From contig NZ_OY763930.1 of the NCBI RefSeq assembly GCF_963667685.1, forward strand, positions 1,781,501-1,845,500: 64,000 bases of DNA, written 5' to 3'. This document shows, in pieces, positions 8,401-25,923 of the stretch. Below the pieces are notes generated by a model. The model made no database searches. It worked only from the letters and a program-made list of their open reading frames with translations, and was not told the DNA's origin. A program made the translations under genes and the position numbers. The stretch is from Maridesulfovibrio sp. GTDB lineage: Bacteria; Desulfobacterota; Desulfovibrionia; Desulfovibrionales; Desulfovibrionaceae. The first letter of the stretch is position 1; each line of letters begins with the position of its first letter.

Positions 8401-8419
8401 TTTTTCTTCTATTAAGTAG

Positions 8420-9639: not shown

Positions 9640-9731
9640 AAAAGAAGTTATTAAAAAAGGAGTTCTGTTGTAGGAAATACAGGATTGTGCTATTTATGGT
9701 GAAAATTAAAATTAAATAATGGAGTTGAACC

Positions 9732-10247
9732 ATGAAAGAAAGAACAGGTATAATCACATTCAAGGGCAATCCCCTGACACTTCTCGGTAATGAAATCAAA
9801 GTTGGTGACAAGGCTCCTGAATTCACTGCAACCGATAATGAACTCGGCCCTAAAACTCTGGCTGATTTTAAAGGAAAGGTACTGATCTTAAGCGCGGTTC
9901 CTTCCCTTGATACTCCGGTTTGCGACATGGAGACCCGCAGGTTCAATAACGAAGCTGCCTCTCTTGGTGAAGATGTCAAAATTCTTACTCTGTCCATGGA
10001 CCTGCCTTTTGCCCAGGCTCGGTGGTGTGGAGCTGCCGGAGTTGAAGCTGTACAGACTCTTTCAGACTATATGAGTGCATCTTTCGGTGAAGCCTACGGC
10101 GTGCTGATTAAAGAACTGCATCTCCTGAGCAGGGCTGTTTTCGTGGTCGATAAATCCGGCACAGTACAATATGTACAGTACCTGAATGAAATCACAGAAG
10201 AACCGGACTATGATGCTGCGCTCGATGCGGCAAAGAAGCTTGTTTAA
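9732..10247 (+). CDS. tpx: thiol peroxidase (atypical 2-Cys peroxiredoxin)
   Basis: A 171-residue peroxiredoxin of the Tpx group that reduces hydroperoxides with electrons from thioredoxin. The peroxidatic cysteine lies in SAVPSLDTPVCDMETRRFN (about residue 61) and the resolving cysteine in LPFAQARWCGAAGV (about residue 95). Start features MKERTGIITFKGNPLTLLGNEIKVGDKAPEF are typical. The ATG is preceded by ATGGAG (9720-9725). Monocistronic: about 90 bases separate it from the upstream gene and a strong terminator follows. It is a standard oxygen-defence enzyme in anaerobes. Confidence 0.95.
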   Translation: MKERTGIITFKGNPLTLLGNEIKVGDKAPEFTATDNELGPKTLADFKGKVLILSAVPSLDTPVCDMETRRFNNEAASLGEDVKILTLSMDLPFAQARWCGAAGVEAVQTLSDYMSASFGEAYGVLIKELHLLSRAVFVVDKSGTVQYVQYLNEITEEPDYDAALDAAKKLV

Positions 10248-10266
10248 AGTAAACTTATTCAAAAAG

Positions 10267-10298
10267 GACTTTCCGCAACTCACGGAAAGTCTTTTTTT
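10267..10298 (+). terminator. intrinsic terminator of tpx
   Basis: Perfect 9-bp stem GACTTTCCG (10267-10275) / CGGAAAGTC (10283-10291) with a 7-base loop and a run of seven T, starting 19 bases after the tpx stop. Confidence 0.92.
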
Positions 10299-10353
10299 AT
10301 TTTTAGGCTTGACCACAAAATATGTGCTAAGCTAAAGAAGGCTCTTACCAAAG

Positions 10354-10429
10354 GCCAACGTAGCTCAGTCGGTAGAGCAGCTGATTCGTAACCAGCAGGT
10401 CGTCGGTTCAATTCCGATCGTTGGCTCCA
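10354..10429 (+). tRNA. tRNA-Thr (anticodon CGT)
   Basis: A 76-nt cloverleaf with acceptor arm GCCAACG/CGTTGGC, D-arm TAGCTCAGTCGGTAGAGCA, an anticodon loop reading ATTCGTAAC (CGT, decoding ACG), a T-arm with GGTTCAATTCC, and an encoded CCA end at 10427-10429. Its 3' half is the integration target of the island that follows; the gene remains intact because the element carries an identical copy of that half. Confidence 0.95.
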
Positions 10430-10441
10430 GTTAAATCAAGG
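10386..10441. repeat. attachment-site repeat, tRNA-proximal (attL) of the 15.4-kb island
   Basis: These 56 bases, from the tRNA-Thr anticodon loop to 12 bases past the CCA, recur without a mismatch at 25780-25835 in the same orientation. Similarity continues imperfectly for about 35 more bases through the terminator hairpin. Such direct repeats are the product of site-specific integration into a tRNA 3' end by a tyrosine recombinase. Confidence 0.9.
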
Positions 10442-10470
10442 TCTTACATCGTATAGATGTAAGGCCTTTT
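10439..10470 (+). terminator. terminator hairpin after tRNA-Thr
   Basis: CTTACATC (10443-10450) pairs with GATGTAAG (10456-10463), extended by AGG/CCT, and is followed by CCTTTTC. A diverged copy of the same hairpin lies after the distal att repeat at about 25833-25863. Confidence 0.7.
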
Positions 10471-10518
10471 CTTGTTTCTGCTACCCTATAGCTACCCTAG
10501 GTTTGGGGGCGTTGGATA

Positions 10519-13368
10519 TTACCGTCCACAACATTTTTTATATTTTTTTCCAGATAAGCATGGACAAGGTTCGTTTCGTCCAATTTTTGTCTTCTTCGGG
10601 TAATGTTGCCGCGGCTTATTTGGCTTTTCAGAAAAATGGCCCAGATTTTTTCTTTTTGGTGGGAGAATTTTTCCTGCTATTATGTTCTGGACTAAGCTAG
10701 CGTGATTAATTAATTCTTCTTGGCAGTTAGACCCGACTGCATTTCGAAATGGTTTAATCATTGTAAGTTGCTTGCGCGCTTCATTATAAGCCCCACAATA
10801 GGCCAAAACAACAGCATACTGACTTCTAATGGGAATGACCCAATCCATTAATTTTAAGTCTTCAGCAGAAGGCAGGAGTGATTGTTCAATGAAGTTTCTT
10901 GCTGATTGGATATCTCCTAATGGGCTAATAAAATCGGCAACAATATCTTGCCCGACTTTCATGGCAGAGTTGATTGCATTTGCCATATTATAAAATTTAA
11001 AAGCAAATAGTTTTTCAAGGCTATAACGCTCTCCACTCTCTTGTATTGCTCTGGCGAGTAGGTCGTAGCAATCTGCCATTCTTTTAAAATCATCAGGGTC
11101 ATATTCAGCATGGATTTTTGCTAAAATTTCAGGAGGATTTTTTCCAAATATATCTTCCTGTGACAATCCAAACAAATTTAAATATACACTGATCAATGAG
11201 TTTGCTTGCTTAATCGTCGCCGGAAAGTTTTTGCTTTCGTAGAGGACTATAGCATAGTTATATTGCGCAATCCTTGAAAATTGTGATTTTCTAATTGCTG
11301 CAAGCTTGTTTTCATAAATATCTTTGGCTATTGAAAGATGCTTCTCTCTTGATGCAATGAGCATCTTTTTCATATAAAAATTATTGTATTCTCGACTACC
11401 TGCTGCACATTTGGTTAAGTATGGTTGCATTTCCTTCAAACGTTGTTTTGCTGATGATAGCTTGTTGTCTTGAATATCCCAAAAAGAAAGTGTATCCAGA
11501 ATCCAAAAAGTATCTATTTCTGATATTTTATATTTTGAAGATAGTTTAGATTCCAATAAGAATTTGATCCTATGTGATAATCCTAATTCATGGAATATCT
11601 CTGTCATTACAGTACAGATGTCAATGAATTCACTTACTCGGCCAAGATCATTAAGTAGTCGTAGATGTAAGTCTATCCTATCAATATTTAGATTTGTTTC
11701 AGGTTTTAAAAATAGAGTTTCAAGAATGTTTTGCTTTATCTTTACAATAGACTCCGCTGAAAGAGAGTCATGATAACTTTGTGCTAAAATACCAAATGCA
11801 TCATGAAGCTTGTAACAACCATCCTCAATTCTTTGGATGATACCTTTGTCAATCAGTCCTCTAAGTGATGAGATGAGCGCTCTTTTAGGGACTCTGCTAG
11901 AATTATGAATGATAGTTATGAGTTCTTCTTTACTAAGTGGAATACCTTTACATATTTTTAAAATTGAACAGATCGTTTTGGATTTGTCTTCTAGCTGCTC
12001 AAATGTGCTAGAAAGAATCCTTTCTTGTGTCGTTTGTTCAATATTTTCAGCTAATTCGATTTCGTTTAAAAAATTTGAAAGTTCGTAACAATATTGTTCT
12101 TGAATAAGTGTGATAGCGCTTAGGGTGTATAAGGGAAGACCTCCTGTTGCAGCGCGAAGTCTAACACAGTCTTGTAGTCGAAAATTAATGTTATTTGCTT
12201 CTAAAATAGCACCTATTGTCTCTATAGACCATCCTTTCAATTCTTTTGCAGAGACACCTAATATGGTTTCTTGCTGTTTTAGTTTCGTTCCCGGTTGAGC
12301 GAGGAGAACAAATTTGATTCTAGAACAAGCAGAGATGATTTTTTTTACTGTTTCTGGTGTTGTTTCCTGTATATTATCAAGGATCAGATAAGGACTATCT
12401 TTCTGGTTTGTTAGCCAAATATTTAAAGCGCGAAGAGAGTCAATTGAGGATGATCCCGGCATTAAAATTTCGCCAAGTCCTTTACTGTTTTTGCCTACTA
12501 AAGCTGCAGCAATTTCTCTGACAAAGGAAGGAAGAAAGTTATCTTCTTCGGTGCCAATCGCATCGAAATATACTACAGGGGATCCGATACGAGCTGCCTC
12601 GTGTGCTACCCAAGCCGTTTTTCCCGCGCCAGATAAACCTGAAATAATACGTATTGGGCTATCTGAAGCTAATTGGAATTCATTATTTAGAGGGTAGTAC
12701 TTTAAAGGTGGTGTAGGCATTACTTGAAGTTGAGTCACAATTTGTTCTAATAAAGAATGTATAGTCTCAGGGATTACAATGTGCTCTTTGTTTAGTCCTC
12801 CTGTGCAAAGTCGTTGAACCCAAGCCGCAAGTTTGTAGACTAAATTGTTTGGACTTAAGGTTATATATGGAATTGTTTTCGCCTGCTCAATACACCAGTC
12901 AAATCCAGAAGGAACGTCTTTCCAAGCAGGAGGAAGACATGGGAGATTCTGATCAGACCCAGGATAAAGAATTTGTACTCTATCAGGTAGTGAATTATCT
13001 TGTACTGATTTAGATAACTCTCTTCCAAGGTTGCTGTTGGATATGATTATTAACGACGGTTGTCGTGATCGTTCTCTTTTTGTATGTTTTTTCTTGATTT
13101 TTTCAAATAAATCAAGAGCTCCGCTTATGTCATTTTTAGCGAGTGGTTTTGTTCGAGTTTTTACCTGAAGATATAAATGTTCGCCCGCAGTTGCGATTTC
13201 TATGTCTTCATCTTTTTCGGCCACTAGAAATTCAACTTTGTTTTTCAAAGCTAAAAGCAGACAGCCAACAGTATATAAATGCTGATAAAAGAAGCCTCTG
13301 TGTACACTTTCAATTCGTGTAAGTTGTTTTTCATCAATTACTTTAGGGGGGAGCACATTGTTAGGCAT
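10519..13368 (-). CDS. Avs-like antiphage protein: N-terminal nuclease, STAND NTPase, TPR-like repeats, C-terminal SEC-C
   Basis: A 949-residue multidomain protein. Residues about 20-110 look like a DUF4297/Cap4-type PD-(D/E)xK nuclease (RGFFYQHLYTVGCLLLAL, acidic EDIEI around Asp55, then QVK at 68-70). Residues about 225-520 form a STAND-type P-loop NTPase: Walker A GLSGAGKT at 244-251, Walker B PYLILDN at 326-332, and a sensor stretch IKFVLLAQPGTK. Residues about 530-900 are helical TPR-like repeats. The last 21 residues are a SEC-C zinc motif (IGRNEPCPCLSGKKYKKCCG). Nuclease-STAND-repeat architecture is that of Avs antiviral sensors, in which the repeats recognise a phage protein and trigger DNA cleavage. 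The SEC-C tail is not a feature I know from described Avs types. Start ATG 13368 has AAGGAT upstream. It is 23 bases downstream of the zinc-hook ATPase gene and AT-rich relative to the flanks. Confidence 0.75.
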   Translation of the reverse strand: MPNNVLPPKVIDEKQLTRIESVHRGFFYQHLYTVGCLLLALKNKVEFLVAEKDEDIEIATAGEHLYLQVKTRTKPLAKNDISGALDLFEKIKKKHTKRERSRQPSLIIISNSNLGRELSKSVQDNSLPDRVQILYPGSDQNLPCLPPAWKDVPSGFDWCIEQAKTIPYITLSPNNLVYKLAAWVQRLCTGGLNKEHIVIPETIHSLLEQIVTQLQVMPTPPLKYYPLNNEFQLASDSPIRIISGLSGAGKTAWVAHEAARIGSPVVYFDAIGTEEDNFLPSFVREIAAALVGKNSKGLGEILMPGSSSIDSLRALNIWLTNQKDSPYLILDNIQETTPETVKKIISACSRIKFVLLAQPGTKLKQQETILGVSAKELKGWSIETIGAILEANNINFRLQDCVRLRAATGGLPLYTLSAITLIQEQYCYELSNFLNEIELAENIEQTTQERILSSTFEQLEDKSKTICSILKICKGIPLSKEELITIIHNSSRVPKRALISSLRGLIDKGIIQRIEDGCYKLHDAFGILAQSYHDSLSAESIVKIKQNILETLFLKPETNLNIDRIDLHLRLLNDLGRVSEFIDICTVMTEIFHELGLSHRIKFLLESKLSSKYKISEIDTFWILDTLSFWDIQDNKLSSAKQRLKEMQPYLTKCAAGSREYNNFYMKKMLIASREKHLSIAKDIYENKLAAIRKSQFSRIAQYNYAIVLYESKNFPATIKQANSLISVYLNLFGLSQEDIFGKNPPEILAKIHAEYDPDDFKRMADCYDLLARAIQESGERYSLEKLFAFKFYNMANAINSAMKVGQDIVADFISPLGDIQSARNFIEQSLLPSAEDLKLMDWVIPIRSQYAVVLAYCGAYNEARKQLTMIKPFRNAVGSNCQEELINHASLVQNIIAGKILPPKRKNLGHFSEKPNKPRQHYPKKTKIGRNEPCPCLSGKKYKKCCGR

Positions 13369-13391
13369 TGGTAAAATCCTTATTGACCTAG

Positions 13392-15968
13392 TTAGCTATG
13401 AACCTGCAGAGGTATAGGTCTTGCCTTAAAGGCTGCCTGCCACTGCTGTAGTCCTTTAAAATCAGGTTCTAATTCATCTGGTGCTGGAAGCGAGACGGGT
13501 GCCTCTAGAGGCTGGGAATGTTCATATCTTGAATACTTTGTCATCAAATCATCAAAGTATGAACAATCTTCCTCTGATATTTTGGCAAGATTGCCAATTT
13601 TACCCATTGTATTTATTGCTCGTCTATATCTCTGGACAACATCAGCAAGAAGTTCACACTCAATCATGCGTTCAAGCAAGATTCTAAAATCACTGCATAG
13701 TGCTTTGGCATAAGGCTCATAAACTTCCTTTCCATGCTCATTGAAGAGTCTTTTCGCCTTTGAAAGACGCTCATTAATAAGTTTATTTAATGCTTTATCT
13801 GGTTTCTTTGCAAAAAGTGGTGTGTCGCCCGGTTCTCCAGTTCCCCAAGACTCCTCTCGAATGCAGATGATTTCAGGATTGATGGCAACTTTCTTGGCAT
13901 AGTCTTGAAACATCCCCATAAGTGAAAGGCGATGGGTGAATATTATGATTTGTCTTTCGGAAGCGATAGAGCAGAGACGCTGAACAACTGCCTCTTCGTA
14001 ATCCTGATCAAGGGATGAAATGGGATCATCAAACACAAGAGGAGTCGGATAGTTTCTGCCGGCAACATCAGCTACAAATGCAGCAATAGAGACAATGCGA
14101 CTCTCACCTTCACTTAATATTTCACTGAGGCTGTGGTCCGCTCCATCCAACTGAAGAGTGTGAAGTACTTTGCCTTTAGATACTTTTGATTTGACGAGTT
14201 TGACCTTAATCCGGGAAGCTCCTAAAGCTTTTAGTTCATCGTTAAAACGTTGGACAAAAGCATCTGTAATAAGGGATTCCGCTAACTTTCCTTTTTTAGT
14301 GGATAATGTTGCGGAGTTCGTTTTCTTCTTGGCTTCCTTAATTCGCTTAAGTTTTTGCAGACGACTGATTTCTTCTTGAATTGCAACTTTTTGCTCTGTG
14401 AGCCACTTCTTTGCCCGCAAGTCATTTAGTTTAACTTGCAGTTCTTCACGGTTGTCATTGGCTGCATCGTCTTCATATTTCTTGGCACTATCCTCATACG
14501 TTTTTGATATTTTGTGTATTTCTTCAATCCAGTTAGGAGATAGGTTAAAATTGTCCAAAGTCTCTTCTGAATCAAATGATGGTACTTTTGACATTCTATG
14601 TTGAAGAGCAGAGAGTGTAGCATTCAGACCTTTAATAATATCCTGATTTTCAATTCCAGCAGCGTCTATTTTTGTCTTAAACGCCTCAATGCTAGGAATT
14701 TCCGGTAGATCATCAATTGCTTGTTTGAGATCTTTGGCTGCGTCTGCAGCCTGTTTTTGTGTTAAACCCTTTATGTATGTTTCAAAAGAGGTCAGTCGAT
14801 GTTTGGCTTTCCCTGATAAAGGCTGCTGGCAAAGTACACAGACAGAATCATCCTGAACATTTGGAAAATCCAGTTCGCAATATGCCAGTTCTTCGGAATA
14901 TTTTCGTGCAGCATTCCAGAGTTCTTTCCATATATCAGATCCTACTCCTTCAAGTTTTGCGTCACGGAAAATATCTTTTGCCGTTGCTTCGGCAGCGGTC
15001 TTTTTCAGGATGGCTTTCTTTTTAGCAGCGATAATCTTTCTGCAATTATTATCTGAGAGTTGATTGAGGTAAACCTGAACATCTTTAACGATAGCATCGG
15101 CATGACTTTTTTTGTTTCTGAATTGGATGGCCTTATCAGCGGGTGATGGCTCAGAAATTCTTTTTAGGAGGTCTTGTCGATCTTTTTCATTTTCCGGAGT
15201 GAAAGAACAATGGGCTTCAACTTCATCTGCCGATGTTTTGGCACTGAGTTTTTCCACCCAAGCTGCTCCTTTGGAACCAACATAAGAACTCGGAATACTC
15301 GGCATTTTGGATTTAAGTGCTTCGGAATCTGTATCAAGCTTGGAGGCAACCTTCTCACAAACATTGATAAGTCTGCTAAAGAAGGACAAAATTGGAGGCT
15401 CGTAGCTAACCTCACCTTCGTTTCCTATAAACACCCGGCCAAATGAAGTGTCGAAGATATCAACGGAGCATAAGTCTTTACAGACTCCCTTGCCAGACCA
15501 TTCATGTTCCGTTGGACTATTATTTTTGAGAAAGGAGATTTTGGCTTTCTGAACCACTTCTTTAGCCGAAAATATGTTGTTGTGAAGTAGCCCAAGGGTA
15601 CAGTCGCGGGCTCCGCAAATATGTTTCAGAAGCCTTACATAACCGGATTTGCCAGAGCCATTCTGCCCGTAAACAATAGCAATGTTACTTTTACCAAAAT
15701 CAAGCGAGTTACGGGGAGCAAGTTTGTTTACCCCTTCAACTTCACTGATGGCACATAAACGTATTTCTTTCGGATTATGGGGCTTAAAAGCACTGGAAGG
15801 TATACTACAGTCGATATCAGGAAATTCATTGTTAGCTTCCTGCTGGCACAGCACAGAAAGCTCAGAAATTGTCGCCTCATTTATATTGCTGGATGCCAGT
15901 AAATGTTTAGCAGCTACTTGCAGCCATTTTGGTCTTCTCGTTAACCATTCCGTTGTTGATGAAATCAT
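13392..15968 (-). CDS. SMC-like AAA_13 ATPase with zinc hook, RloC/PrrC-like putative anticodon nuclease
   Basis: An 858-residue ABC/SMC-type ATPase. Walker A GQNGSGKS at 101-108; coiled-coil segments on either side of a zinc-hook CVLC at 377-380; ABC signature LSEGESR at 618-624; Walker B PLVFDDPISSLD at 643-654; H-loop FTHR at 677-680. The C-terminal 130 residues contain R762-x3-E766 (FRILLERMIE) and H817 (YSRYEHSQ), an arrangement recalling the Arg-Glu-His triad of PrrC/RloC anticodon nucleases, although the Glu-His spacing is longer than in PrrC. RloC combines exactly a zinc hook, an ABC ATPase and a C-terminal tRNase, so a suicide tRNA-cleaving defence role is plausible; another AAA_13 family cannot be excluded. 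First gene of a two-gene operon with the STAND protein. Confidence 0.7.
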   Translation of the reverse strand: MISSTTEWLTRRPKWLQVAAKHLLASSNINEATISELSVLCQQEANNEFPDIDCSIPSSAFKPHNPKEIRLCAISEVEGVNKLAPRNSLDFGKSNIAIVYGQNGSGKSGYVRLLKHICGARDCTLGLLHNNIFSAKEVVQKAKISFLKNNSPTEHEWSGKGVCKDLCSVDIFDTSFGRVFIGNEGEVSYEPPILSFFSRLINVCEKVASKLDTDSEALKSKMPSIPSSYVGSKGAAWVEKLSAKTSADEVEAHCSFTPENEKDRQDLLKRISEPSPADKAIQFRNKKSHADAIVKDVQVYLNQLSDNNCRKIIAAKKKAILKKTAAEATAKDIFRDAKLEGVGSDIWKELWNAARKYSEELAYCELDFPNVQDDSVCVLCQQPLSGKAKHRLTSFETYIKGLTQKQAADAAKDLKQAIDDLPEIPSIEAFKTKIDAAGIENQDIIKGLNATLSALQHRMSKVPSFDSEETLDNFNLSPNWIEEIHKISKTYEDSAKKYEDDAANDNREELQVKLNDLRAKKWLTEQKVAIQEEISRLQKLKRIKEAKKKTNSATLSTKKGKLAESLITDAFVQRFNDELKALGASRIKVKLVKSKVSKGKVLHTLQLDGADHSLSEILSEGESRIVSIAAFVADVAGRNYPTPLVFDDPISSLDQDYEEAVVQRLCSIASERQIIIFTHRLSLMGMFQDYAKKVAINPEIICIREESWGTGEPGDTPLFAKKPDKALNKLINERLSKAKRLFNEHGKEVYEPYAKALCSDFRILLERMIECELLADVVQRYRRAINTMGKIGNLAKISEEDCSYFDDLMTKYSRYEHSQPLEAPVSLPAPDELEPDFKGLQQWQAAFKARPIPLQVHS

Positions 15969-16050
15969 CTCCTAGTCTCCTTCTTTCTTATGTGAAGTAG
16001 TACTTCTATATGCAAAAAAATTAGAGCTCATGATCATGAATTGTCAACCT

Positions 16051-16090
16051 TATGGTTTATTATGCTTTATTATCGTTTACTATGCTTTAC
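16051..16090. repeat. four helix-phased 10-bp tandem repeats upstream of the defence operon
   Basis: Four consecutive 10-base units TATGGTTTAT, TATGCTTTAT, TATCGTTTAC, TATGCTTTAC (consensus TATSSTTTAY), followed by partial units TATCCAATAT and TATTGTATAT. They lie 83 bases upstream of the ATPase start codon. The exact helical period suggests a cooperative protein-binding array or a bent-DNA promoter element. Confidence 0.55.
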
Positions 16091-16162
16091 TATCCAATAT
16101 TATTGTATATTTGTTTGATTTCTTGCCCGAATAGCGCAAAATCGCTTATACTCTCCCGGAGT

Positions 16163-16259
16163 CCGAAGGCAGGACAGGTAAGGTGGGCCCACTTTTTCAA
16201 AGCGGTTGACCTTACGCCCTGCACAGCCTCGGGGCTGAGATGGACTTATTCACCTTCGG
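16163..16259. other. nested inverted repeats that could fold into a three-way-junction RNA
   Basis: CCGAAGG (16163-16169) pairs with CCTTCGG (16253-16259). Inside, GCAGG (16169-16173) pairs with CCTGC (16218-16222), GTAAGGT (16178-16184) with ACCTTAC (16209-16215), and CAGCC-TCGG-GGCTG forms a hairpin at 16224-16237. No protein-like frame spans the element. It sits between the divergent defence operon and the Rha-like gene. I do not recognise the family. Confidence 0.4.
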
Positions 16260-16338
16260 TTTAACGAAAATTGCTGGTGAAATTCAGAATTCCTGAATTT
16301 TGCGATTGTATTAACTGCAAACAATATAGGGTGAAAGT

Positions 16339-16746
16339 ATGAATAGAAAAGTAAGTAAAAACAATGAACAGCCTATCCTCAGTAAATTGAAAATCAAAAA
16401 CGGTAAGCCAATGGTTTCGTCTTTAATCGTGGCTGAGTTGTTTCAACTGGAGCATAAGAGCGTCCTGAAAGCTATCCGTTGTCTTGAAATTCCTGATGAA
16501 TTTAACGAGCGTAATTTTGCGCCCGTATCAATTGAAGTTGAAAAGCCGAATGGAGAAAAAATTAGGGAGTCGTCCTGCTACATGACCCGTGACGGTTTCA
16601 CTCTGCTCGCCATGGAAACTATTGGTAAGAAATCCATCGAGTGTACGATCAATTTTTTTGAAGCTTTCAACGACATGGATGAGCGGCTGAAGAGGGAGCT
16701 AGCAAAAATGCAATTATACGTACGAAAATGCTATCCAGTTCAGTGA
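16339..16746 (+). pseudogene. Rha-family phage regulator, frameshifted remnant
   Basis: A 135-codon frame whose central part is a Rha (phage pRha) domain: KNGKPMVSSLIVAELFQLEHKSVLKAIR, then SCYMTRDGFTLLAMETIGKKSIECTINFFEAFNDMD. It starts at ATG 16339 behind GGTGAAAG. After about residue 126 the frame ends abruptly (YVRKCYPVQ stop), while a shifted frame continues with TYENAIQFSDKSKAKLKLSA and on to a stop near 16872, indicating a frameshift in a longer ancestral gene. Rha proteins come from temperate phages, where they affect lysogenic growth. Together with the decayed coil gene downstream this marks a degraded phage segment inside the island. The domain itself may still be made. Confidence 0.65.
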
Positions 16747-16947
16747 CAAAAGTAAGGCTAAACTTAAGCTATCAGCATCAGGAGCCAACAAGCATCAGCC
16801 GCAAATAGCAACCCAGAAGAAGAAAGAATGCAAATTTACGAAATGGGGCATCAACTCTTCCCCAAAGGGATAAAGTTGAAAATAGCCAAAACAAATAGGG
16901 GCCCGCCACTCGTTTTGCTAACGAGGTAGATCATGAACAAGTAAAGT

Positions 16948-17157
16948 CGGAGCTTATCTGAGACATTAAACCGTTTAAGCGAAGAACAGCAGCAAAGGCT
17001 GAAAAATCAAGATCACAAGATAGCCGAGCAGAGAGAAAGGATTTCCGAGCTGGAACAGGAGGTTCAAGGCTGCCGGGATTTGCTGAGCTGATTGGAAGGT
17101 GCTTTGAGCGAGCTGGATGAGTTGTCTGGGCATTTGCCCGGGGGGCGGGGAAAGTGA
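16948..17157 (+). pseudogene. decayed coiled-coil protein gene
   Basis: A plus-strand frame with clear coiled-coil character, reading LSEEQQQRLKNQDHKIAEQR, ERISELEQEVQGCRDLLS, an in-frame TGA at 17089-17091, then LEGALSELDELSGHLPGGRG and a final stop at 17155. Upstream of 16948 the sequence continues only in another frame, so both a frameshift and a nonsense mutation have occurred. No start codon belongs to the remaining frame. Origin probably phage or plasmid; function not identifiable. Confidence 0.4.
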
Positions 17158-17275
17158 AGAACAAAAATGGTTAGTCAACCACCGATCCCTATAACTAGCT
17201 AAACGTGACGTTTTCCCCTTCCCCTATTTTGTACCTGTCAAATACTGAGAAATTCGGCCCCTAGGGGGCTAGGCA

Positions 17276-17443
17276 ATGATGAGAATCTATTTAATACATG
17301 GAGATTGTTTACAAAACATTATTGAAATTAAAAAGTACGTGGATGTTGGTCGGTTGAAAAGTCTAATAAGTAAGGATAATTTGTATTTGTTAAAGTGTGT
17401 TTTTTTAGTGAGAGAAGCGTATTTTTTCCACAATAAGATATAG
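17276..17443 (+). CDS. hypothetical 55-residue basic protein just upstream of cas3
   Basis: An ORF from a tandem ATG (17276/17279) to TAG 17441-17443, reading MMRIYLIHGDCLQNIIEIKK at the start and REAYFFHNKI at the end, with AGG four bases before the start. It is AT-rich, rich in Lys, Ile and Leu, and shows no domain I know. It lies 100 bases before the cas3 start, in the 800-base stretch between the phage remnant and the cas operon. It may be a real small protein, part of the cas leader, or chance. Confidence 0.3.
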   Translation: MMRIYLIHGDCLQNIIEIKKYVDVGRLKSLISKDNLYLLKCVFLVREAYFFHNKI

Positions 17444-17542
17444 GCAGTTGAATTCTTGAGGTGATGAGCGTATGTTTTTTGACCTAATTATTATTAAATT
17501 TTAACAGTGGTTTACAGTGGCGGTTATCAGATAAGGGGACAT

Positions 17543-19696
17543 ATGTTTTACGCACATACAAAAGCAGGTGTTGATGAGAACGAATGGCAGCTTCTTGATG
17601 ATCATTTGATTGGTGTGGCTAAATTGGCTTCGAAATTTTCGGCTATTTTCGGTGGTTCTGATTGGGGTGAATTGGTCGGTAAATTCCATGACTACGGTAA
17701 GTTTAAGCCAGATTTTCAGAAAAAACTTCATTCAAATTCAAATGTGATAGTTGACCATAAAAGTATCGGTGCCAGATTGGTGTCTGATCATCTCGGTCAG
17801 GCTGGAAAATTGCTGTCTTTCTGCATAGCCGGACATCATGGAGGTCTGCCGGACTCAACCCATAGGAATTTGGGCGAATCTCTAGATGATATTTTGGATA
17901 AAGCTGGGCCTTACATAGATTCCGTGCCTGAACTCTCATCTACGTTTGCTCCGGAAAAGCTTCCCTTCACTTTTACTTCAGTATTTCAATTATCTTTTTT
18001 TACCCGCATGCTTTTTTCAGCACTGGTTGATGCAGATTTTTTGGATACCGAGCGGTACATGGACCCGGAGAAATTCTCCAAGCGTGAATCAGGGCCTGAT
18101 TTAAGCGTCCTGTATGAGGCTCTCAATAAGCGAATAAGCATATTTGAACCGGACACCTACATCAACAAGCTTCGCTGTGAAATATTGGACCACTGTCTTG
18201 AAAGCGCAGAACGTGACCCCGGCCTTTTCTCTCTCACAGTACCTACCGGAGGCGGAAAGACTCTTACTTCCATGGCCTTCGCCCTGAAACATGCCCTGAA
18301 ACATGGTATGCGCAGGGTTATTTATGTCATTCCTTACACGTCGATTATTGAGCAGAATGCCCATGTTTTTAAACAAATTTTCCCTCCCGGTTCTGTAATT
18401 GAGCACCATAGCAATTTTGATAGCAGCAAGCTCAAAGACGAGGAAGAGATTCCATCTGCGGACCTTAAACACCGTCTGGCCTGTGAAAATTGGGATGCTC
18501 CAGTCGTGGTGACAACCAATGTTCAATTTTTCGAATCTCTTTTCGCTGCTAAGCCTTCACGCTGCCGCAAACTTCATAATCTTGCCGGATCGGTTGTCAT
18601 TCTGGATGAAGCCCAGATGCTGCCTGTCGAGTATCTCAAGCCGTGTATGCGTGGCCTTGAGGAGTTGGTTGAGAACTATAATTCCAGCGTTGTACTCTGT
18701 ACCGCCACACAGCCCGCATTGCAGAAATCTGAAAATTTTACTGATGGTCTGGAAATAGCCGCAGAGCTCGCTCCGGACCCGGACCGTATGCATAGAGAGT
18801 TCAAACGCACAAAGCTGCATGACAAAGGCGTTCTGTCCCTTGATGAAGTCGCACAGGAAATTTGCGGGAAAGATCAGGGATTGTGCATCGTTAATACCAG
18901 AGCTCGTGCAGCCGAGTTGTTTTCCAAGATTAAAGACGAACCGGGAGCGGGCCATTTGAGTGCATTGATGTGTCCGGCGCACCGCTCGGAAGTCCTTACG
19001 GATATTCGCGCTAGACTTGCTGCGGGCAAGCCTTGTCGTGTTGTCAGTACCCAACTCATTGAAGCTGGGGTTGATGTGAGTTTTCCAGTTGTTATCCGTG
19101 AACTGGCCGGGCTCGATTCAATAGCTCAGGCTGCGGGAAGATGTAACCGCGAAGGCGAACTGGCGGAGATGGGGCAGGTGTCGGTTTTTGAACCTGCTGA
19201 AGGATTGGCCGGGTACTTCCGGCAGGCGGCGGGTAATGCTCAAAACACATTGCGCTTGCATCCTGAGGATTCATTTTCCCCGCAAGCAATGCATCATTTT
19301 TTTGCGGATACCTATTGGCTTAAAAGTGACCAGTTAGACAAAAAGAAAGTGCTTGAAGATTTGAACAGTCCCCACGGCCAATGGGATTTTCGCACGGCAG
19401 CCAAAAAATTTCGGCTTATTGAAAATGAAATGGTCCCGATCATTGTTAAATACAATGATAAAGCCGAAAAACTGCTGCGAGATTTGGTTTTTGCAGATTT
19501 TCCGGCATCCATTCTGCGTAAGCTACAACAGTTTACAGTACAGGTTTATACGCAACAATTTGCAGCACTTAATGATATGGGTGCAATTGAGATTGTGGAT
19601 GAAAGTTATGCCGTGTTGGTAGATGAGAGTCTGTATGATTTTGAAGCTGGACTGTTGGTTCCTGAAAATATTTCGAATGACAACTTCATAGTTTAA
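17543..19696 (+). CDS. cas3: CRISPR-associated helicase-nuclease Cas3 (type I-C)
   Basis: A 717-residue fusion of HD nuclease and superfamily 2 helicase that degrades target DNA after Cascade recognition. HD domain: H21, HD at 49-50 (KFHDYGKFKPDFQ), AGHHGG at 97-101, and D164. Helicase: Walker A VPTGGGKT at 233-240, DEAQ box at 355-358, ATQP motif III, and motif V-VI STQLIEAGVDVSFP through GLDSIAQAAGRCNREGE. The frame opens at GTG 17507 but ATG 17543 with AAGGGG four bases upstream gives the standard N-terminus MFYAHTK. First gene of the cas operon; cas5c follows 16 bases later. Confidence 0.96.
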   Translation: MFYAHTKAGVDENEWQLLDDHLIGVAKLASKFSAIFGGSDWGELVGKFHDYGKFKPDFQKKLHSNSNVIVDHKSIGARLVSDHLGQAGKLLSFCIAGHHGGLPDSTHRNLGESLDDILDKAGPYIDSVPELSSTFAPEKLPFTFTSVFQLSFFTRMLFSALVDADFLDTERYMDPEKFSKRESGPDLSVLYEALNKRISIFEPDTYINKLRCEILDHCLESAERDPGLFSLTVPTGGGKTLTSMAFALKHALKHGMRRVIYVIPYTSIIEQNAHVFKQIFPPGSVIEHHSNFDSSKLKDEEEIPSADLKHRLACENWDAPVVVTTNVQFFESLFAAKPSRCRKLHNLAGSVVILDEAQMLPVEYLKPCMRGLEELVENYNSSVVLCTATQPALQKSENFTDGLEIAAELAPDPDRMHREFKRTKLHDKGVLSLDEVAQEICGKDQGLCIVNTRARAAELFSKIKDEPGAGHLSALMCPAHRSEVLTDIRARLAAGKPCRVVSTQLIEAGVDVSFPVVIRELAGLDSIAQAAGRCNREGELAEMGQVSVFEPAEGLAGYFRQAAGNAQNTLRLHPEDSFSPQAMHHFFADTYWLKSDQLDKKKVLEDLNSPHGQWDFRTAAKKFRLIENEMVPIIVKYNDKAEKLLRDLVFADFPASILRKLQQFTVQVYTQQFAALNDMGAIEIVDESYAVLVDESLYDFEAGLLVPENISNDNFIV

Positions 19697-19712
19697 ATAA
19701 ATGGAGGTGTAT

Positions 19713-20366
19713 GTGGCCACAGGAGTTAAATTGAGGGTCTGGGGTGATTATGCCTGCTTTACCCGCCCGGAAATGAAGGTGGAACGGGTGAGTTATGATG
19801 TCATGACACCCTCTGCCGCCCGAGGCATTCTGGAAGCCATTTATTGGAAGCCGAGCATAAAGTGGGTGGTGGACAGAATCCATGTGCTCAAATCTGTTCG
19901 TTTCGACAATATTCGGCGAAACGAGGTTTCGGCAAAAGTTCCGGTAAAAGGAAAGACCGGGGTCGGTTCTGCCATGAAAAACGGCAAAGGCAATCTGCGG
20001 ATTTATGTGGAAGACGTCCGCCAACAACGAGCAGCCATGGTTTTGCGTGATGTGGATTACATCATTGAAGCACGTTTTGAATACGCTTCTAATGAGGATC
20101 GTAATGATGGCAAGCATCTGGATATTTTCAATCGGCGTGTAGCAAAAGGACAGTGCTTTCATCGTCCTTATCTGGGATGCCGTGAATTTGCTGCTGCTTT
20201 CGGCCCGGTTGAAGGGGATATTCCTGTTTCTGAGATTGAAGGTGAAACCGATCTCGGATGGATGCTGCACGATATTGATTACAAAGCTGGCATGACGCCG
20301 GAATTTTTCCGTCCGGTCATGCAGAACGGGATTATCGAATGCCGTAACGGAGGGCAGTCCGCATGA
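19713..20366 (+). CDS. cas5c: Cas5c, pre-crRNA endonuclease and Cascade subunit (type I-C)
   Basis: A RAMP-fold protein of 217 residues; in type I-C it replaces Cas6, cuts pre-crRNA at the base of the repeat hairpin and stays on the 5' handle. Family motifs: LRVWGDYACFTRPEMKVERV, YDVMTPSAARGILEAIYWKP, and the catalytic-side segment GKHLDIFNRRVAKGQCFHRP followed by YLGCREFAAAF. An ATG at 19701 is in frame, but it lacks an SD; GTG 19713 has GGAGG five bases upstream and gives the usual N-terminus. The stop overlaps the cas8c ATG by four bases (ATGA). Confidence 0.95.
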   Translation: MATGVKLRVWGDYACFTRPEMKVERVSYDVMTPSAARGILEAIYWKPSIKWVVDRIHVLKSVRFDNIRRNEVSAKVPVKGKTGVGSAMKNGKGNLRIYVEDVRQQRAAMVLRDVDYIIEARFEYASNEDRNDGKHLDIFNRRVAKGQCFHRPYLGCREFAAAFGPVEGDIPVSEIEGETDLGWMLHDIDYKAGMTPEFFRPVMQNGIIECRNGGQSA

Positions 20367-22075
20367 TTTTGCAGGCTCTTAATGATTATTACATTCGTAT
20401 GGCCGATGATCCTGACGTGGATGTTTCTCCATTCGGGTTCGGCAAGCAGGGAGTTCATTTCTGCCTGACAATTGACCGCGAAGGCAATCTTGTGGGCGAT
20501 CCCCTTGACCTGCGCGAGAATGGAAAGCCGTTTCGGATTGAAGTTCCGGGGCCGGAAACAAGAGCTAATGCGGTTGTTTCTAATTTTGCGTGGGATAATA
20601 CCGGATATGTTTTGGGTGTAGACGGCAAGGGGAAGCCTGAGCGTACAGCCAAAACTTATACGGCATTCAGGGAATTGGCCCAAACCATTTTAGATGGTGT
20701 TGATGATGACGGTGGGCGGGCTTTGCTTTCCTTTTTGGAAAAATGGAATCCTGAACAGGCTGAGGACTTGAAAGATTGGGAAGAGGTCTTGGACAATAAT
20801 CTTGTTTTCAGACTTGACGGTGAACGTGGGTTTCTCCATGACCGGGAGTCCGTGCGAGATGCATGGTCAAAGTATTTGGACGGCAAGGCAGGGACCAAAA
20901 AGGGGAAATGTCTGGTCACGGGTGAGGAAGATGTCTCCATCCCAAACACCCACGCCAAGATTAAGGGCGTCCCCGGAGCGCAGACTGCCGGGGCTGCACT
21001 TGTGTCTTTTAATATCGACTCCGCAGAATCACTGGGAAAAAAACAGAACCAGCTTTCGCCTATTTCCGAAAAAGCCGCCTTTGCCTACACCACGGCTTTA
21101 AACCATTTGCTGGCACCGGGAAGTTCCCGAAAGGTTCAGGTCGGGGATACAACCGTGCTGTTCTGGACCGATGCCCCCGAAGCGGAAGTCTTATTCGGTC
21201 AGGTTGTGGGCGGCAGGGAATCCGATGACAAGGACCTTGCCAAACAAATACGTGGAATGTTCTCTATGTTGGCAAAAGGCAGGCTTCCGCGTGAACTCGG
21301 TGATCCTGAAATACCCTTCTATGTGCTGGGCCTTTCGCCAAATGCCGCACGCATTTCAGTGCGCTTCTGGCATGTGGGAACGGTCGGGGAAATGTTTTCC
21401 AATATCGGCAGACATTTTGAACAGATGTCATTGGCTGGGAAACCTCCGAAAACGCCGGAAAATCCAAGCCCGTGGTGGATTTTGAAAGAGCTTGCCGCTC
21501 AGCAGGATTCTCGGAACATATCACCGCTTTTAAGTGGGCAGTTGCTTAAAGCGATCATCAGAAACAGTCCTTATCCCATGACTCTGCTGAATGCAGCTAT
21601 AGGAAGAATCAGGGCTGACAAGAATATCGGGTATATCCGGGCCGGGATAATCAAGGCGGTTCTGGTTCGTAACTATCAACAGGAGATCGATATGGCTCTT
21701 GATAAGGAAAATGGTGAGATTGGATATAGGCTGGGGCGTCTTTTTGCCATTGTGGAGCGGATTCAGGAAGAAGCTGTGCCCGGTAGCAACGCAACGGTCA
21801 GGGATCGGTTTTTCAGTTCCGCATCTGCTACCCCGGCGAGGACATTTCCTGTGATTTTACGCAATGCCCAGAACGGTCTTGCCAAAATCCGTAAGGAAAA
21901 GCCCGGATATGCGGTGAATCTTGATAAATCAATTCAGGAAATACTTGGTGAAGTTGACTCGCAAAATGGTTTTCCTGCCGCACTGAATCTTGAAAAGCAG
22001 GGCATGTTTATTCTCGGCTATTATCAGCAAAAGCAGTATTTTTTCACACCAAAACAGACTTCCACGGAGGCATAA
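20363..22075 (+). CDS. cas8c: Cas8c (Csd1), large subunit of type I-C Cascade
   Basis: A 570-residue Csd1-family protein, the type I-C large subunit that recognises the PAM and recruits Cas3. Typical N-terminus MILQALNDYYIRMADDPDVD, internal VSFNIDSAESLGKKQNQLSPISEKAAFAYTTALN, TTVLFWTDAPEAE, and C-terminal half with SGQLLKAIIRNSPYP and FSSASATPARTFPVILRNAQ. In type I-C an internal start within cas8c commonly yields the small subunit Cas11c; the C-terminal part here is intact and could do so. Starts inside the cas5c stop (ATGA) and ends 3 bases before cas7c. Confidence 0.95.
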   Translation: MILQALNDYYIRMADDPDVDVSPFGFGKQGVHFCLTIDREGNLVGDPLDLRENGKPFRIEVPGPETRANAVVSNFAWDNTGYVLGVDGKGKPERTAKTYTAFRELAQTILDGVDDDGGRALLSFLEKWNPEQAEDLKDWEEVLDNNLVFRLDGERGFLHDRESVRDAWSKYLDGKAGTKKGKCLVTGEEDVSIPNTHAKIKGVPGAQTAGAALVSFNIDSAESLGKKQNQLSPISEKAAFAYTTALNHLLAPGSSRKVQVGDTTVLFWTDAPEAEVLFGQVVGGRESDDKDLAKQIRGMFSMLAKGRLPRELGDPEIPFYVLGLSPNAARISVRFWHVGTVGEMFSNIGRHFEQMSLAGKPPKTPENPSPWWILKELAAQQDSRNISPLLSGQLLKAIIRNSPYPMTLLNAAIGRIRADKNIGYIRAGIIKAVLVRNYQQEIDMALDKENGEIGYRLGRLFAIVERIQEEAVPGSNATVRDRFFSSASATPARTFPVILRNAQNGLAKIRKEKPGYAVNLDKSIQEILGEVDSQNGFPAALNLEKQGMFILGYYQQKQYFFTPKQTSTEA

Positions 22076-22078
22076 ATC

Positions 22079-22954
22079 ATGGGCGCAATCACCAATCGTT
22101 ACGAATTCGTTTACCTTTTTGATGTTGAAAACGGGAACCCCAACGGCGACCCGGATGCTGGGAATCTGCCCAGAGTTGATCCTGAAACAGGGCATGGCCT
22201 TGTGACCGATGTCTGTCTGAAACGCAAGATCAGGAATTTTGTTGAAATCGCTAAAGGAGAAGAAGAAGGTTTTAATATTTATGTTGCTGAGAAAGCGGTT
22301 TTGAATCGGAACAACGAACAGGCTTATAAAGCTCTTGAGATTAAACAGGAGAAGAAAAAGCTTCCTAAAGATCAGGAAAAGGCCCGTAAATTGACCCGCT
22401 GGATGTGTGATAATTTTTTTGATGTAAGAACATTCGGGGCCGTAATGACTACCGAGGTCAACTGCGGGCAGGTCCGTGGCCCTGTGCAATTGACTTTTGC
22501 CAAAAGTATAGAGCCGATCATGCCTTCAGAGATCAGCATTACCCGTATGGCTGTCACCAACGAGAAAGATCTGGAAAAAGAACGCACCATGGGCCGCAAA
22601 TTCATCGTCCCTTATGCTCTGTACCGTGCCGAAGGCTACATTTCCGCCCATCTTGCTGACGGTGACAAGGGAACCGGTTTCTCCGAAAGCGATCTTGAAT
22701 TGCTCTGGCAATCCTTGGCCAATATGTTCGACCATGACCATTCCGCAGCCAGGGGCAAAATGAATGCCCGTGGGCTGGTTGTTTTTAAGCATGAAACCAA
22801 GCTGGGGAATGCTCCGGCGCACAAGCTCTTTGATACCGTTTCTGTTGAGAAAAATAATAATACTGATGGACCGGCAAGGGCTTTTTCCGATTATACTGTA
22901 AAGGTTGATGAATCGGCAGTTCCTGAGGGTGTTGATCTGGATATTAAGTTCTAA
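22079..22954 (+). CDS. cas7c: Cas7c (Csd2), backbone subunit of type I-C Cascade
   Basis: A 291-residue RAMP protein that polymerises along the crRNA spacer. Family signatures: [80 protein letters not shown], and [21 protein letters not shown]. The start follows the cas8c stop by three bases with GGAGG in the preceding codons (cas8c end ACGGAGGCATAA). The stop is 2 bases before cas4. Confidence 0.96.
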
Positions 22955-22956
22955 CC

Positions 22957-23571
22957 ATGTCCGAATTATTGCCCATTTCCGCATTGCAGCACTACCTGTT
23001 TTGCCCGCGTCAATGCGCCCTTATCCATGTTGAAAAGGTGTGGGTTGAAAACAGGTTTACTGTGGAAGGCAGAATTATGCACCGGCGTGTCGACTCCGAA
23101 CAACGGGGAAGGCGCGCCGGGGCTGATCAGGATTTATCCGTACCGCTTAAAAGTGAGCGGTTGGGATTATACGGCATTGCCGATGTTGTAGAAATGGTTC
23201 CCGGACCGGACGGAAGGGAAGTCCCGTATCCGGTGGAATACAAAAGGGGCAGCCCTAAAATTCTGGATTGGGATCGTGTTCAGCTTTGTGCGCAGGCTCT
23301 TTGTCTTGAAGAAATGCTGGGAGTGTCAGTGCCGGAAGGGGCTATCTTCTACGGCAAGCCTCGCCGCAGGGAAGTTGTTGATTTCGACCATAAACTTAGG
23401 GTGTTGGTAAAAGAAACGGCTATGGAACTCCATAGATTGATAGCCGAAGCCCGAATTCCGGCAGCTGTCAAAGACAAGAAATGCCGTTCATGTTCGTTGG
23501 CCGGAGAATGTATGCCCGGAGTCGGGAATATAAAAGTGGAGCCATATCTGCTGAGTGCTCTTAAAGAATAG
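22957..23571 (+). CDS. cas4: Cas4, RecB-family exonuclease for spacer acquisition
   Basis: A 204-residue PD-(D/E)xK nuclease with a [4Fe-4S] cluster: N-terminal cysteine in FCPRQCALIHVE (Cys24/Cys28 region), nuclease core GIADVVEM and PVEYKRG (motifs with Asp and E-x-K), and C-terminal cysteines KCRSCSLAGECMPG. Cas4 trims prespacers and selects PAM-containing ends for Cas1-Cas2. Follows cas7c by two bases and precedes cas1 by nine. Confidence 0.95.
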   Translation: MSELLPISALQHYLFCPRQCALIHVEKVWVENRFTVEGRIMHRRVDSEQRGRRAGADQDLSVPLKSERLGLYGIADVVEMVPGPDGREVPYPVEYKRGSPKILDWDRVQLCAQALCLEEMLGVSVPEGAIFYGKPRRREVVDFDHKLRVLVKETAMELHRLIAEARIPAAVKDKKCRSCSLAGECMPGVGNIKVEPYLLSALKE

Positions 23572-23580
23572 GGATGAATT

Positions 23581-24612
23581 TTGAAAAAATTGCTCAACAC
23601 TCTTTATGTGACCACTCAGGGCAGTTACCTGTCAAAGGATGGCGAATGCATTGTCGTCCGTTCAGAGGATGGGAGTAAAAGGAAATTTCCGGCTCATGTT
23701 TTGGACGGCGTTGTCTGTTTCGGAAATGTCCTGTGCAGTCCTTTTTTGCTTGGTCATTGTGCGGATAGCGGAATTTCCGTGTCGTTTTTGACAGAGAATG
23801 GACGTTTTCTGGCAGAAGTAAAAGGTCCGCAAAGCGGGAATGTTATGCTGCGCCGTGAGCAGTATCGGCGGGCAGATGATCTTGTGCAGGCTTCTGCGAT
23901 GGCCCGCAGTTTTTTGATTGGCAAGACGGTTAACTCAAGGGCCGTATTGCGCAGGGGATTGCGTGATCACGGGGAGCGCATAGATTCAGGACGTCTTGAG
24001 AACGCGACTCTTGAACTGGATTCCTATGCAAAAAGATTGAGCAATCCCTTGGAGCTTGAAGAAGCTCGCGGGCTGGAGGGTAGAGCAGCCAATGTTTATT
24101 TTAATGTTTTGGATGAATTGATTTTGAAAAATGACGGGGAGTTTACCTTTACAGGTCGCAATCGTCGACCTCCGTTGGATAAGGTGAATTGTCTGCTGTC
24201 CTTTGTTTACACTCTTTTGGCCCATGATGTGCGGTCTGCTCTTGAGGCAGCAGGACTTGATCCGCAAGTTGGGTTTCTGCATCGAGACCGTCCGGGCAGG
24301 CCGGGATTGGCTTTGGATATGATGGAGGAGTTTCGTTCATTTATGGCAGACAGAATCGTTTTGACGCTCATCAACCGTGGTGAAGTCAGTAGCAAGGGTT
24401 TTTCTGTAAAGGAAAGTGGTGCTGTGCTTATGAACGATGATACGCGCAAAACTGTGTTGCAGGCTTGGCAGAAGCGCAAAAGTGATATTGTCCTGCATCC
24501 ATATATCAAAGAGAAGATTCCATTAGGGATTGCTTTTCATGTGCAGGCAAAACTTCTGGCCCGATGTCTGAGAAACGATCTTGACGGGTATCCTCCGTTT
24601 TTCTGGAAGTGA
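23581..24612 (+). CDS. cas1: Cas1 integrase (type I-C)
   Basis: A 343-residue metal-dependent integrase for new spacers. Metal ligands are visible: Glu in EARGLEGRAANVYF, His and Asp in VGFLHRDRPGRPGLALDMMEEFR. The start is TTG at 23581, preceded by AGGGATG; no ATG in frame gives a complete N-terminus (KKLLNTLYVTTQGSYLSKDG). C-terminus YPPFFWK is typical for I-C. cas2 starts three bases later. Confidence 0.96.
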   Translation: MKKLLNTLYVTTQGSYLSKDGECIVVRSEDGSKRKFPAHVLDGVVCFGNVLCSPFLLGHCADSGISVSFLTENGRFLAEVKGPQSGNVMLRREQYRRADDLVQASAMARSFLIGKTVNSRAVLRRGLRDHGERIDSGRLENATLELDSYAKRLSNPLELEEARGLEGRAANVYFNVLDELILKNDGEFTFTGRNRRPPLDKVNCLLSFVYTLLAHDVRSALEAAGLDPQVGFLHRDRPGRPGLALDMMEEFRSFMADRIVLTLINRGEVSSKGFSVKESGAVLMNDDTRKTVLQAWQKRKSDIVLHPYIKEKIPLGIAFHVQAKLLARCLRNDLDGYPPFFWK

Positions 24613-24909: not shown

Positions 24910-25088
24910 AATGCGAACCCTAAGCAGAGCAGAAAATCCCGGCATGTTCGCACTTGTGGAAAAGATGTATTATTTAACGTCGTTATGGCTGCGTGATTAT
25001 GTCTGTTGAGTATAGAAAAAGTTTTTTTTAAAGGATTCGCGAGATCTGCTTCGTGAGCCTTTTAAAATAATGGCTTGAGAAAGCCACT
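24910..25088 (+). promoter_or_regulatory. CRISPR leader
   Basis: The 179 bases between cas2 and the first repeat. Two inverted repeats are visible: an imperfect one (TTTAAAGGATTCGCGAG, then CTTCGTGAGCCTTTTAAA at about 25027-25068), and GGCTT-GAGA-AAGCC at about 25073-25086 directly before the first repeat. The leader should hold the array promoter and the site that directs Cas1-Cas2 to the first repeat. Confidence 0.7.
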
Positions 25089-25647
25089 GTCGCTCCCCAT
25101 GCGGGAGCGTGGATTGAAACCATGACCTCCTCGATTCGGCTCTTAGGCGGTGGCGTCGCTCCCCATGCGGGAGCGTGGATTGAAACAATGCAAATCATTT
25201 TAGAGGTGTGGCACTGGTACGTCGCTCCCCATGCGGGAGCGTGGATTGAAACCGGTTCTTCGGCTTTTCGCCAGCATTATTATGAACGTCGCTCCCCATG
25301 CGGGAGCGTGGATTGAAACTAATCCCACGATGTCTGACGGCAAGCCCGTGTTTGTCGCTCCCCATGCGGGAGCGTGGATTGAAACCCCGCAAAAAGGCTC
25401 GTGAACTGAAAGAACTGCGTCGCTCCCCATGCGGGAGCGTGGATTGAAACTTCGCACATGTTGGGAAGGTGTTAAATATTTTGGGTCGCTCCCCATGCGG
25501 GAGCGTGGATTGAAACAACAACTTCACTGAATTCCATCATGCCTCCTGCTGTCGCTCCCCATGCGGGAGCGTGGATTGAAACCTGCTAAATCCAGCTCTA
25601 CGGATTTGCTGCAGCGTCGCTCCCCATGCGGGAGCGTGGATTGAAAC
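25089..25647 (+). CRISPR. type I-C CRISPR array, 9 repeats and 8 spacers
   Basis: The 32-bp repeat begins GTCGCTCCCC and ends GTGGATTGAAAC; the inner GCTCCC/GGGAGC forms the hairpin cut by Cas5c. Repeat starts: 25089, 25155, 25221, 25288, 25354, 25419, 25485, 25551, 25616. All nine copies, including the last, are identical. Spacers are 33-35 bp (34, 34, 35, 34, 33, 34, 34, 33). Orientation is set by the cas operon upstream and the ATTGAAAC 3' end. No spacer matches another part of the window that I could see. Confidence 0.98.
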
Positions 25648-25779
25648 ACCTCTTCAATCAGGTTTGTTGCTTAAGCTGATATTACATGAACATTTCTGAA
25701 AGCCTAGGTGGTCTAAAAGTTCATTAATTCAAATAGATAAAATGATATATAGCGTATTTAGGAAAAAATTAAAATCTGA

Positions 25780-25835
25780 TCGTAACCAGCAGGTCGTCGG
25801 TTCAATTCCGATCGTTGGCTCCAGTTAAATCAAGG
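25780..25835. repeat. attachment-site repeat, distal (attR) of the island
   Basis: Exact 56-bp copy of 10386-10441: the 3' half of tRNA-Thr, its CCA end and 12 bases beyond. It is preceded by unrelated AT-rich DNA, so only a tRNA fragment is present. A diverged terminator hairpin follows (CTTAC/GTAAG with GGCC extensions, ending CCTTTTC at about 25863). It marks the right end of the 15.4-kb island. Confidence 0.92.
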
Positions 25836-25923
25836 CCTTACATCGTTTGACGTAAGGCCTTTTCTTGTTTCTAGTGATTTAGTTGCTGTATTAGTTGTTG
25901 TTTCGTGCGGAGCTGAAATAGTG

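Follow-up and report, generated by a model that had tools for sequence, protein, structure and literature searches.

A predicted RloC-type ATPase and a putative Avs-like sensor nuclease stacked, apparently by chance, in a tRNA-Thr island of Maridesulfovibrio

Two neighboring genes of a Maridesulfovibrio sp. raise the question of whether they form one composite anti-phage system or two separate defenses that happen to adjoin. They lie in a stretch of 64,000 nucleotides (assembly GCF_963667685.1, contig NZ_OY763930.1, positions 1,781,501 to 1,845,500 of the forward strand; hereafter the window). Gene A (13392..15968, minus strand) encodes an 858-residue RloC-like zinc-hook ABC ATPase with a predicted C-terminal anticodon-nuclease triad, recognized from the open reading frame (ORF), PF13166, and the PADLOC model PDC-S06. 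Gene B (10519..13368, minus strand) encodes a 949-residue protein composed of a putative Cap4-type nuclease, a STAND NTPase, probable helical repeats, and a SEC-C tail, as judged from the ORF, Pfam, PADLOC, and conservation (n = 97). Both ORFs are intact and lie on the same minus strand with an intergenic gap of 23 bases, A being transcribed first; the gene past A is rha, which is divergently oriented (PF09669). The initial annotation of this DNA had given the same ORF coordinates and spacing, and had combined A and B into one composite system. The arrangement was confirmed, and the composite system was not, since the pair was never seen adjoining elsewhere as far as we looked, an outcome that the annotation itself had named as speaking against its proposal. 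We consider it likely that A and B are independently mobile, self-contained anti-phage effectors stacked by chance in a defense island anchored at a tRNA-Thr gene, because the triad of A and the motifs of B are conserved family-wide, their distributions are separate, and the context is rich in defense genes. They look like separate anti-virus suicide devices, a predicted tRNA cutter and a predicted DNA cutter.

Adjoining A-B pairs were sought in genomes of the phylum and the genus and in plasmids, GTDB and viral contigs, and a phage record. In the phylum (297 genomes), A was detected in 13 (E up to 1e-30) and B in three (E up to 1e-10), one of which, G270, matched through the SEC-C tail only; the window's own genome was the only one with matches to both. 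Within the genus, B was found in one and A in two of 17 genomes. Counting all loci, duplicates included, A occurred in 62 and B in 105, and both occurred in three, namely the window twice and L071 of Bradyrhizobium, where B has, about 3.4 kb away and on the opposite strand, a broken and distant relative of A. After eight second fetches and one window stretch were dropped, 42 non-window A loci remained, and 33 of them, L071 included, had more than 2 kb of sequence on each flank. In these 33 distinct loci, B was never the gene adjacent to A, and a survey of 91 distinct B loci, 76 of which had at least 2 kb on each flank, never showed A as the adjacent gene. The B survey omitted the window copies, the broken or split-gene loci L090, L094, L106, and L107, and one locus (L002 = L032 = L137) that was covered by the separate search for loci carrying both genes. 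By search, A was also absent from 11 annotated plasmid neighborhoods of B. With no recurrent adjacency, and with the genes adjoining in the window's own genome only, a composite A-B system found no support in the loci surveyed. As each gene was found, wherever else we looked, without the other as its neighbor, the pair reads as chance stacking and looks like this instead of a dedicated new system; the pairing looks unusual and recent.

In a dedicated two-tier system, B would cleave DNA once it senses a phage, and either the resulting breaks or B itself would free the tRNA nuclease of A, shutting down translation as a backup where DNA cleavage falls short. The operon-like layout with its 23-base gap would suit such an arrangement, and so would the low G+C content common to A and B (33.5-41.7% in 1-kb windows over 11000-15999) compared with the cas genes (45.6-50.2% over 18000-24999). 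RloC is reported to be activated by an inducer of DNA breaks, so a DNA-cutting neighbor could act as a trigger (PMC3874168). However, the 33 A loci and the 91 B loci contained no adjoining pair, and carriage within the genus was limited to one (B) and two (A) genomes of 17, so we regard a dedicated system as distinctly unlikely. A related view, in which B founds an unrecognized, widespread NLR-like anti-phage family, most members having a SEC-C zinc tail, and the DNA breaks that it makes release the RloC here, giving a DNA-then-translation relay of two ready-made parts, is also doubtful. Such a relay could still operate because RloC is reported to respond to DNA breaks (PMC3874168); no sign of selection for the pair was found in this analysis.

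Each of the motifs that the initial annotation had ascribed to A, namely Walker A, the CxxC hook, the ABC signature, and R-x3-E...H, was located in the protein. Walker A is GQNGSGKS (residues 101-108), the zinc hook is CVLC (residues 377-380; 14829..14840, minus strand), the ABC signature is LSEGE (residues 618-622), and a Walker B/D-loop, FDDPISSLDQ, ends at residue 655 and is accompanied by a switch-His motif, FTHR. The predicted nuclease triad consists of R762, E766, and H817 (R-x3-E-x50-H; 13518..13685, minus strand). The ABC ATPase motifs are conserved across homologues. PF13166 matched residues 87-689 with 55.5 bits, and the PADLOC PDC-S06 model PDLC04893 gave a full-length match (1045.8 bits, residues 4-850 of 858). 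Solved ATPase regions matching A include those of AriA, SMC, and HlyB, and that of Rad50 when a profile was used. In the paper describing RloC, membership of the group is defined by ABC motifs held in common, an insert with a CX2C hook, and the pattern Arg-X3-Glu-X36-52-His, and sizes range from 658 to 897 residues (PMC2610378). The x50 spacing and the length of 858 residues fall within these ranges, and A therefore fits the published sequence definition of RloC. On this sequence basis, A is a further member of RloC/PDC-S06, a known kind of protein. It shares with the Geobacillus kaustophilus RloC and PDC-S06 the ABC motifs, the CxxC hook within an insert, the R-x3-E-x36-52-H C-terminus, and the size; unlike them, it has Glu before the catalytic His where Ser is frequent, and it lies upstream of a Cap4-STAND gene.

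Conservation of the triad was evaluated in three alignments. The main one contains A and 22 relatives (23 rows) and omits nine short loci duplicated in longer stretches, two window copies, and L071, where the relative is broken. All 23 rows carry R, E, and H of the triad, and 21 carry the hook Cys pair, the exceptions being L017, a fragment without this region, and L135, a 696-residue ORF without an aligned second Cys. The viral-contig alignment has 15 rows and shares L118 with the main one; partial or distant loci (L185-L199, L213, L217, and L218 among them) and duplicate copies of contigs were omitted. Here the triad is found in 15/15 rows and the hook Cys pair in 14/15, the exception being the fragment L212. 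A C-terminal alignment of 16 sequences, some as little as 16% identical to A, has just five invariant columns, G711, R762, E766, R780, and H817, as would be typical of a catalytic site. The search patterns that recruited the viral-contig and C-terminal loci leave out the triad.

A differing choice of target would still leave two separate effectors: the C-terminal RNase of A might act on RNA other than anticodons, and the nuclease of B might cut RNA or cut non-specifically. The nuclease domains of RloC and PrrC are assigned to the HEPN superfamily of metal-independent RNases, members of which also cut other RNAs (PMC3710099). Nevertheless, A has the RloC sequence features that were tested, and replacing any triad residue of the Geobacillus RloC is reported to abolish its anticodon nuclease activity (PMC2610378), so these other targets appear improbable.

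Of 72,556 plasmid records, 190 carried a homologue of A, covered to at least 80% in 161; the 50,697 phage records had none. The closest relative of A (77% identity) is encoded on the viral contig L118 (stretch 910-18376), within a long co-directional run of genes that by eye resemble those for a DNA methylase, SNF2, HNH, Vsr, SbcD, SbcC, and Mrr.

Gene B has a domain order that was largely as initially proposed: family-wide conservation and Pfam bear out the nuclease, the STAND NTPase, and the SEC-C tail, and the helical repeats follow from these data only tentatively. The putative Cap4/DUF4297-type nuclease domain spans residues 15-115 (13024..13326, minus strand), and its residues E51, D53, E54, D55, E57, Y66, Q68, K70, R72, and R100 are invariant in 97/97 distinct sequences, the window included (four of them below 850 residues in length). 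STAND NTPases carry, in order, Walker A, an hhhhD Walker B (hhhDN), GxP, and an MHD-like (L/V/I)-H-D motif. In B, the predicted STAND NTPase covers residues 238-525 (11794..12657, minus strand), with Walker A SGAGKT at 246-251 followed by D331-N332, GxP at 410-412, and the MHD-like H522-D523. S246, G247, G249, K250, D331, N332, P412, H522, and D523 are kept in all 97 sequences, T251 in 96, and G410 in 95. Many of the relatives were recruited with the patterns SG[AS]GKT[AS]W and VExDED[IVL]E, so these two stretches are invariant partly through that selection; Q68-K70-R72, R100, D331-N332, P412, and H522-D523 lie outside the patterns.

Pfam searches of 40 aligned B members (E up to 0.1) detected AAA_22 in 39, PF14130 (Cap4_nuclease) in 30 with a best value of 2e-8, and SEC-C in 28. 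In the window protein, AAA_22 and AAA_16 fell over the ATPase with scores under their cut-offs, no STAND-specific Pfam model matched, and PADLOC gave a weak PDC-M46A match at residues 20-113. The TPR-like helical repeats, a weakly supported feature, would occupy residues about 560-900 (10669..11691, minus strand). PF02810 identified the SEC-C zinc-binding tail at residues 931-949 (10522..10578, minus strand; 36.2 bits against a cut-off of 20.4, E 5e-9). By a strict pattern, the tail is present in 62/97 sequences, and five further variant tails were seen by eye (L025, L039, L042, L056, and L087). It was ruled out as a defining part of B, since it was found in 62/97 only and several full-length relatives stop short of it; on these alignments, the SEC-C tail is common in the family yet dispensable.

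Whether B belongs to a known system was addressed by comparison. The PADLOC matches to the window protein span single domains only, and the best-scoring models over the 40 members were PDC-S12 (4e-9, 26 members) and LmuA (5e-9, 27 members). The Avs models of PADLOC matched neither the window protein (E up to 1) nor the 40 members (E up to 0.01). Avs proteins have an N-terminal nuclease, a central STAND NTPase, and C-terminal repeats that act as the sensor. B resembles Avs (AVAST) in this order of nuclease, STAND NTPase, and C-terminal repeats, and differs in having no match to an Avs model, a SEC-C zinc tail, and its own set of nuclease motifs. With the Cap4/DUF4297 proteins (CBASS Cap4, HerA-DUF4297, and LmuA of Lamassu), its family probably shares a predicted N-terminal double-stranded DNA endonuclease domain, a likeness based on PF14130 in 30/40 members, LmuA models in up to 27/40 (best 5e-9), and HamA in 13/40. 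Cap4/DUF4297 nucleases are elsewhere partnered with HerA, LmuB, or a cyclase, whereas the nuclease of B is fused to a STAND NTPase. PDC-S73 (Mrr-nSTAND3), which is found in congener G311 at the same tRNA-Thr site, also joins a nuclease and a STAND domain in one protein, but its nuclease is of the Mrr type and its ATPase is nSTAND3, in contrast to the Cap4-type and AAA_22-like domains of B. Among the open-access (PMC) matches listed, which leave most subscription papers outside, no description of a SEC-C-tailed STAND defense protein or of an RloC-Cap4 pair was found. B apparently represents a family of Avs-like STAND sensor-nucleases that is seemingly uncharacterized and that PADLOC 2.0 does not cover whole for the window protein. 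As a coherent family with more than 90 distinct loci, for which PADLOC covers single domains of the window protein, B is a candidate new Avs-like sensor.

The distribution of B is broad. By tblastn, 54 of 72,556 plasmid records matched B, 24 of them over 80% or more of its length, and so did 2 of 50,697 phage records. A scan of genome contigs with the sequence of B itself gave no match; a profile-guided scan gave 103 relatives, of which the best 80 loci were kept. Nine B loci came from viral contigs, one of them matching through SEC-C only. The hosts include Proteobacteria, Desulfobacterota-type sulfate reducers, Acidobacteria, Actinobacteria, a planctomycete, and a Sphingobacterium, and the family occurs on chromosomes and plasmids as well as on viral contigs. 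With an E. coli plasmid copy as the query, a near-DNA search found a B relative in 48 of 5,426 complete E. coli genomes, 35 of them with at least 80% of the query, and these near-complete homologues make B testable in laboratory strains. In E. coli CT02, the relative adjoins a UvrD-helicase gene and an ATP-dependent nuclease gene, which look like Gabija, a label that is our own.

No conserved general partner of B emerged across the 91 loci. A gene for an NlpC/P60-like cysteine hydrolase lies 43-55 bases upstream of B in seven of them (L007, L062, L068, L069, L071, L076, and L084) and is a recurrent partner within part of the family. An N-6 methylase-like gene lies within 6 kb of B in 9/91 loci; both names are taken from the L007 annotation.

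Taken as two separate effectors, A and B would act as follows. In A, a Rad50-like ATPase with a zinc hook would hold the C-terminal nuclease silent until infection-linked DNA damage or remodeling of the ATPase frees it, and R762, E766, and H817 would then cut the tRNA anticodon loop and halt translation. In B, a phage component may be bound by the helical repeats of the C-terminus, alone or together with the SEC-C zinc tail, upon which the STAND ATPase would oligomerize and bring together the N-terminal Cap4-type PD-(D/E)xK domains to cut DNA.

Several observations weigh against this reading. For A, the coverage of PF13166 stops at residue 689, short of the C-terminus; the C-terminus had no match among solved structures (PDB sequences) at E up to 1; and no functional test of PDC-S06 was found in the accessible portions of the literature naming that family. 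For B, the window protein alone did not match PF14130 at E up to 1, and each of the TPR models shown matches only 1-3 of 40 members. Furthermore, the placement of A and B in a single transcription unit is assumed, co-transcription being presumed from the 23-base gap, and promoter-like sites were no commoner than chance (17, against a shuffle mean of 16.2).

The surroundings of the pair form an island of 15.4 kb between two direct repeats that copy the 3' end of tRNA-Thr. The insertion site is a tRNA-Thr gene with the anticodon CGT (10354..10429, plus strand; ARAGORN and Rfam RF00005). Repeat comparison placed the left, att-like repeat, comprising the 3' part of the tRNA and the terminator, at 10386..10479 (plus strand) and the right repeat at 25780..25872 (plus strand; 99% over 67 nucleotides, then 96% over 24 nucleotides), past the CRISPR array. 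Between the repeats are B, A, rha for a phage regulatory protein (16339..16746, plus strand; PF09669, E 2e-18), the type I-C genes cas3-cas5-cas8c-cas7-cas4-cas1 (17507..24612, plus strand; Pfam and PADLOC scans), and a CRISPR array of nine repeats (25087..25648, plus strand; repeat search). The initial annotation had placed the pair in a tRNA island beside CRISPR-Cas. The type I-C genes and array do lie in the same island, and the island does sit at a tRNA gene whose 3' end is repeated at 25780-25872; the window contains a single tRNA gene, so the term does not hold in the sense of a cluster of such genes.

Nine ORFs lying between the repeats were scanned with Pfam, which recognized none as an integrase, and the island may therefore be stranded, which would agree with A and B being decaying cargo that has no function in this strain. 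Both genes are nevertheless full length and retain their conserved catalytic residues, and we consider decay very unlikely. ORFs of about 410 residues beside the att copies of congeners were dropped as integrase candidates, two having been scanned with no Pfam match above the cut-off; the window ORF at 25924-27180 is unlike any of them. Two such proteins, encoded at L165:15708-16925 and L163:3174-4415, are 88% identical and directly adjoin tRNA-Thr in two congeners.

In the congeners, the 3' end of tRNA-Thr(CGT) is an insertion hotspot, holding tandem islands whose cargo varies (loci L163-L178); by our own count among the matches listed, a further copy of this 3' end lies within about 30 kb in at least 8 of 16. 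Two segments of the window align with congener islands: 17398-25647 with the tandem islands of G304, at 87%, and 16087-17115 with the island of G309, at 89%. The cargo was scanned by Pfam, PADLOC, or both for 15 different proteins from three congeners. G311 gave matches to IetA, IetS, and PDC-S73 at the tRNA-Thr site; next to its type I-C cas genes, G304 gave matches to MzaC, MzaE, and a relaxase; and the G309 island holds a gene for Prim-Pol and one of the 5-hmdU-kinase type, PADLOC giving a weak match only. A search of 16 congener stretches showed no counterpart of A-B. Because its parts align separately to G304 and G309 and the cargo differs among congeners, the window island is, on alignment evidence, a mosaic in which A-B forms the tRNA-proximal module. 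The island illustrates the exchange of CRISPR-Cas, RloC-like, and STAND effectors at one insertion site.

Upstream of rha, at window positions 16155-16275 (plus strand), a conserved non-coding element of about 105 nucleotides with nested hairpins was observed. It matched in 17 of 58 genomes searched (the window's own, 14 of 16 congeners, and two weak matches outside the genus), with up to six copies per genome. Rfam contained no family reaching the gathering score, with one non-credible match at E up to 5. The single-sequence fold had a z-score of only -1.5; across 28 aligned copies the stems are kept, and 3 of 26 pairs are changed on both sides. The element is possibly an undescribed structured RNA.

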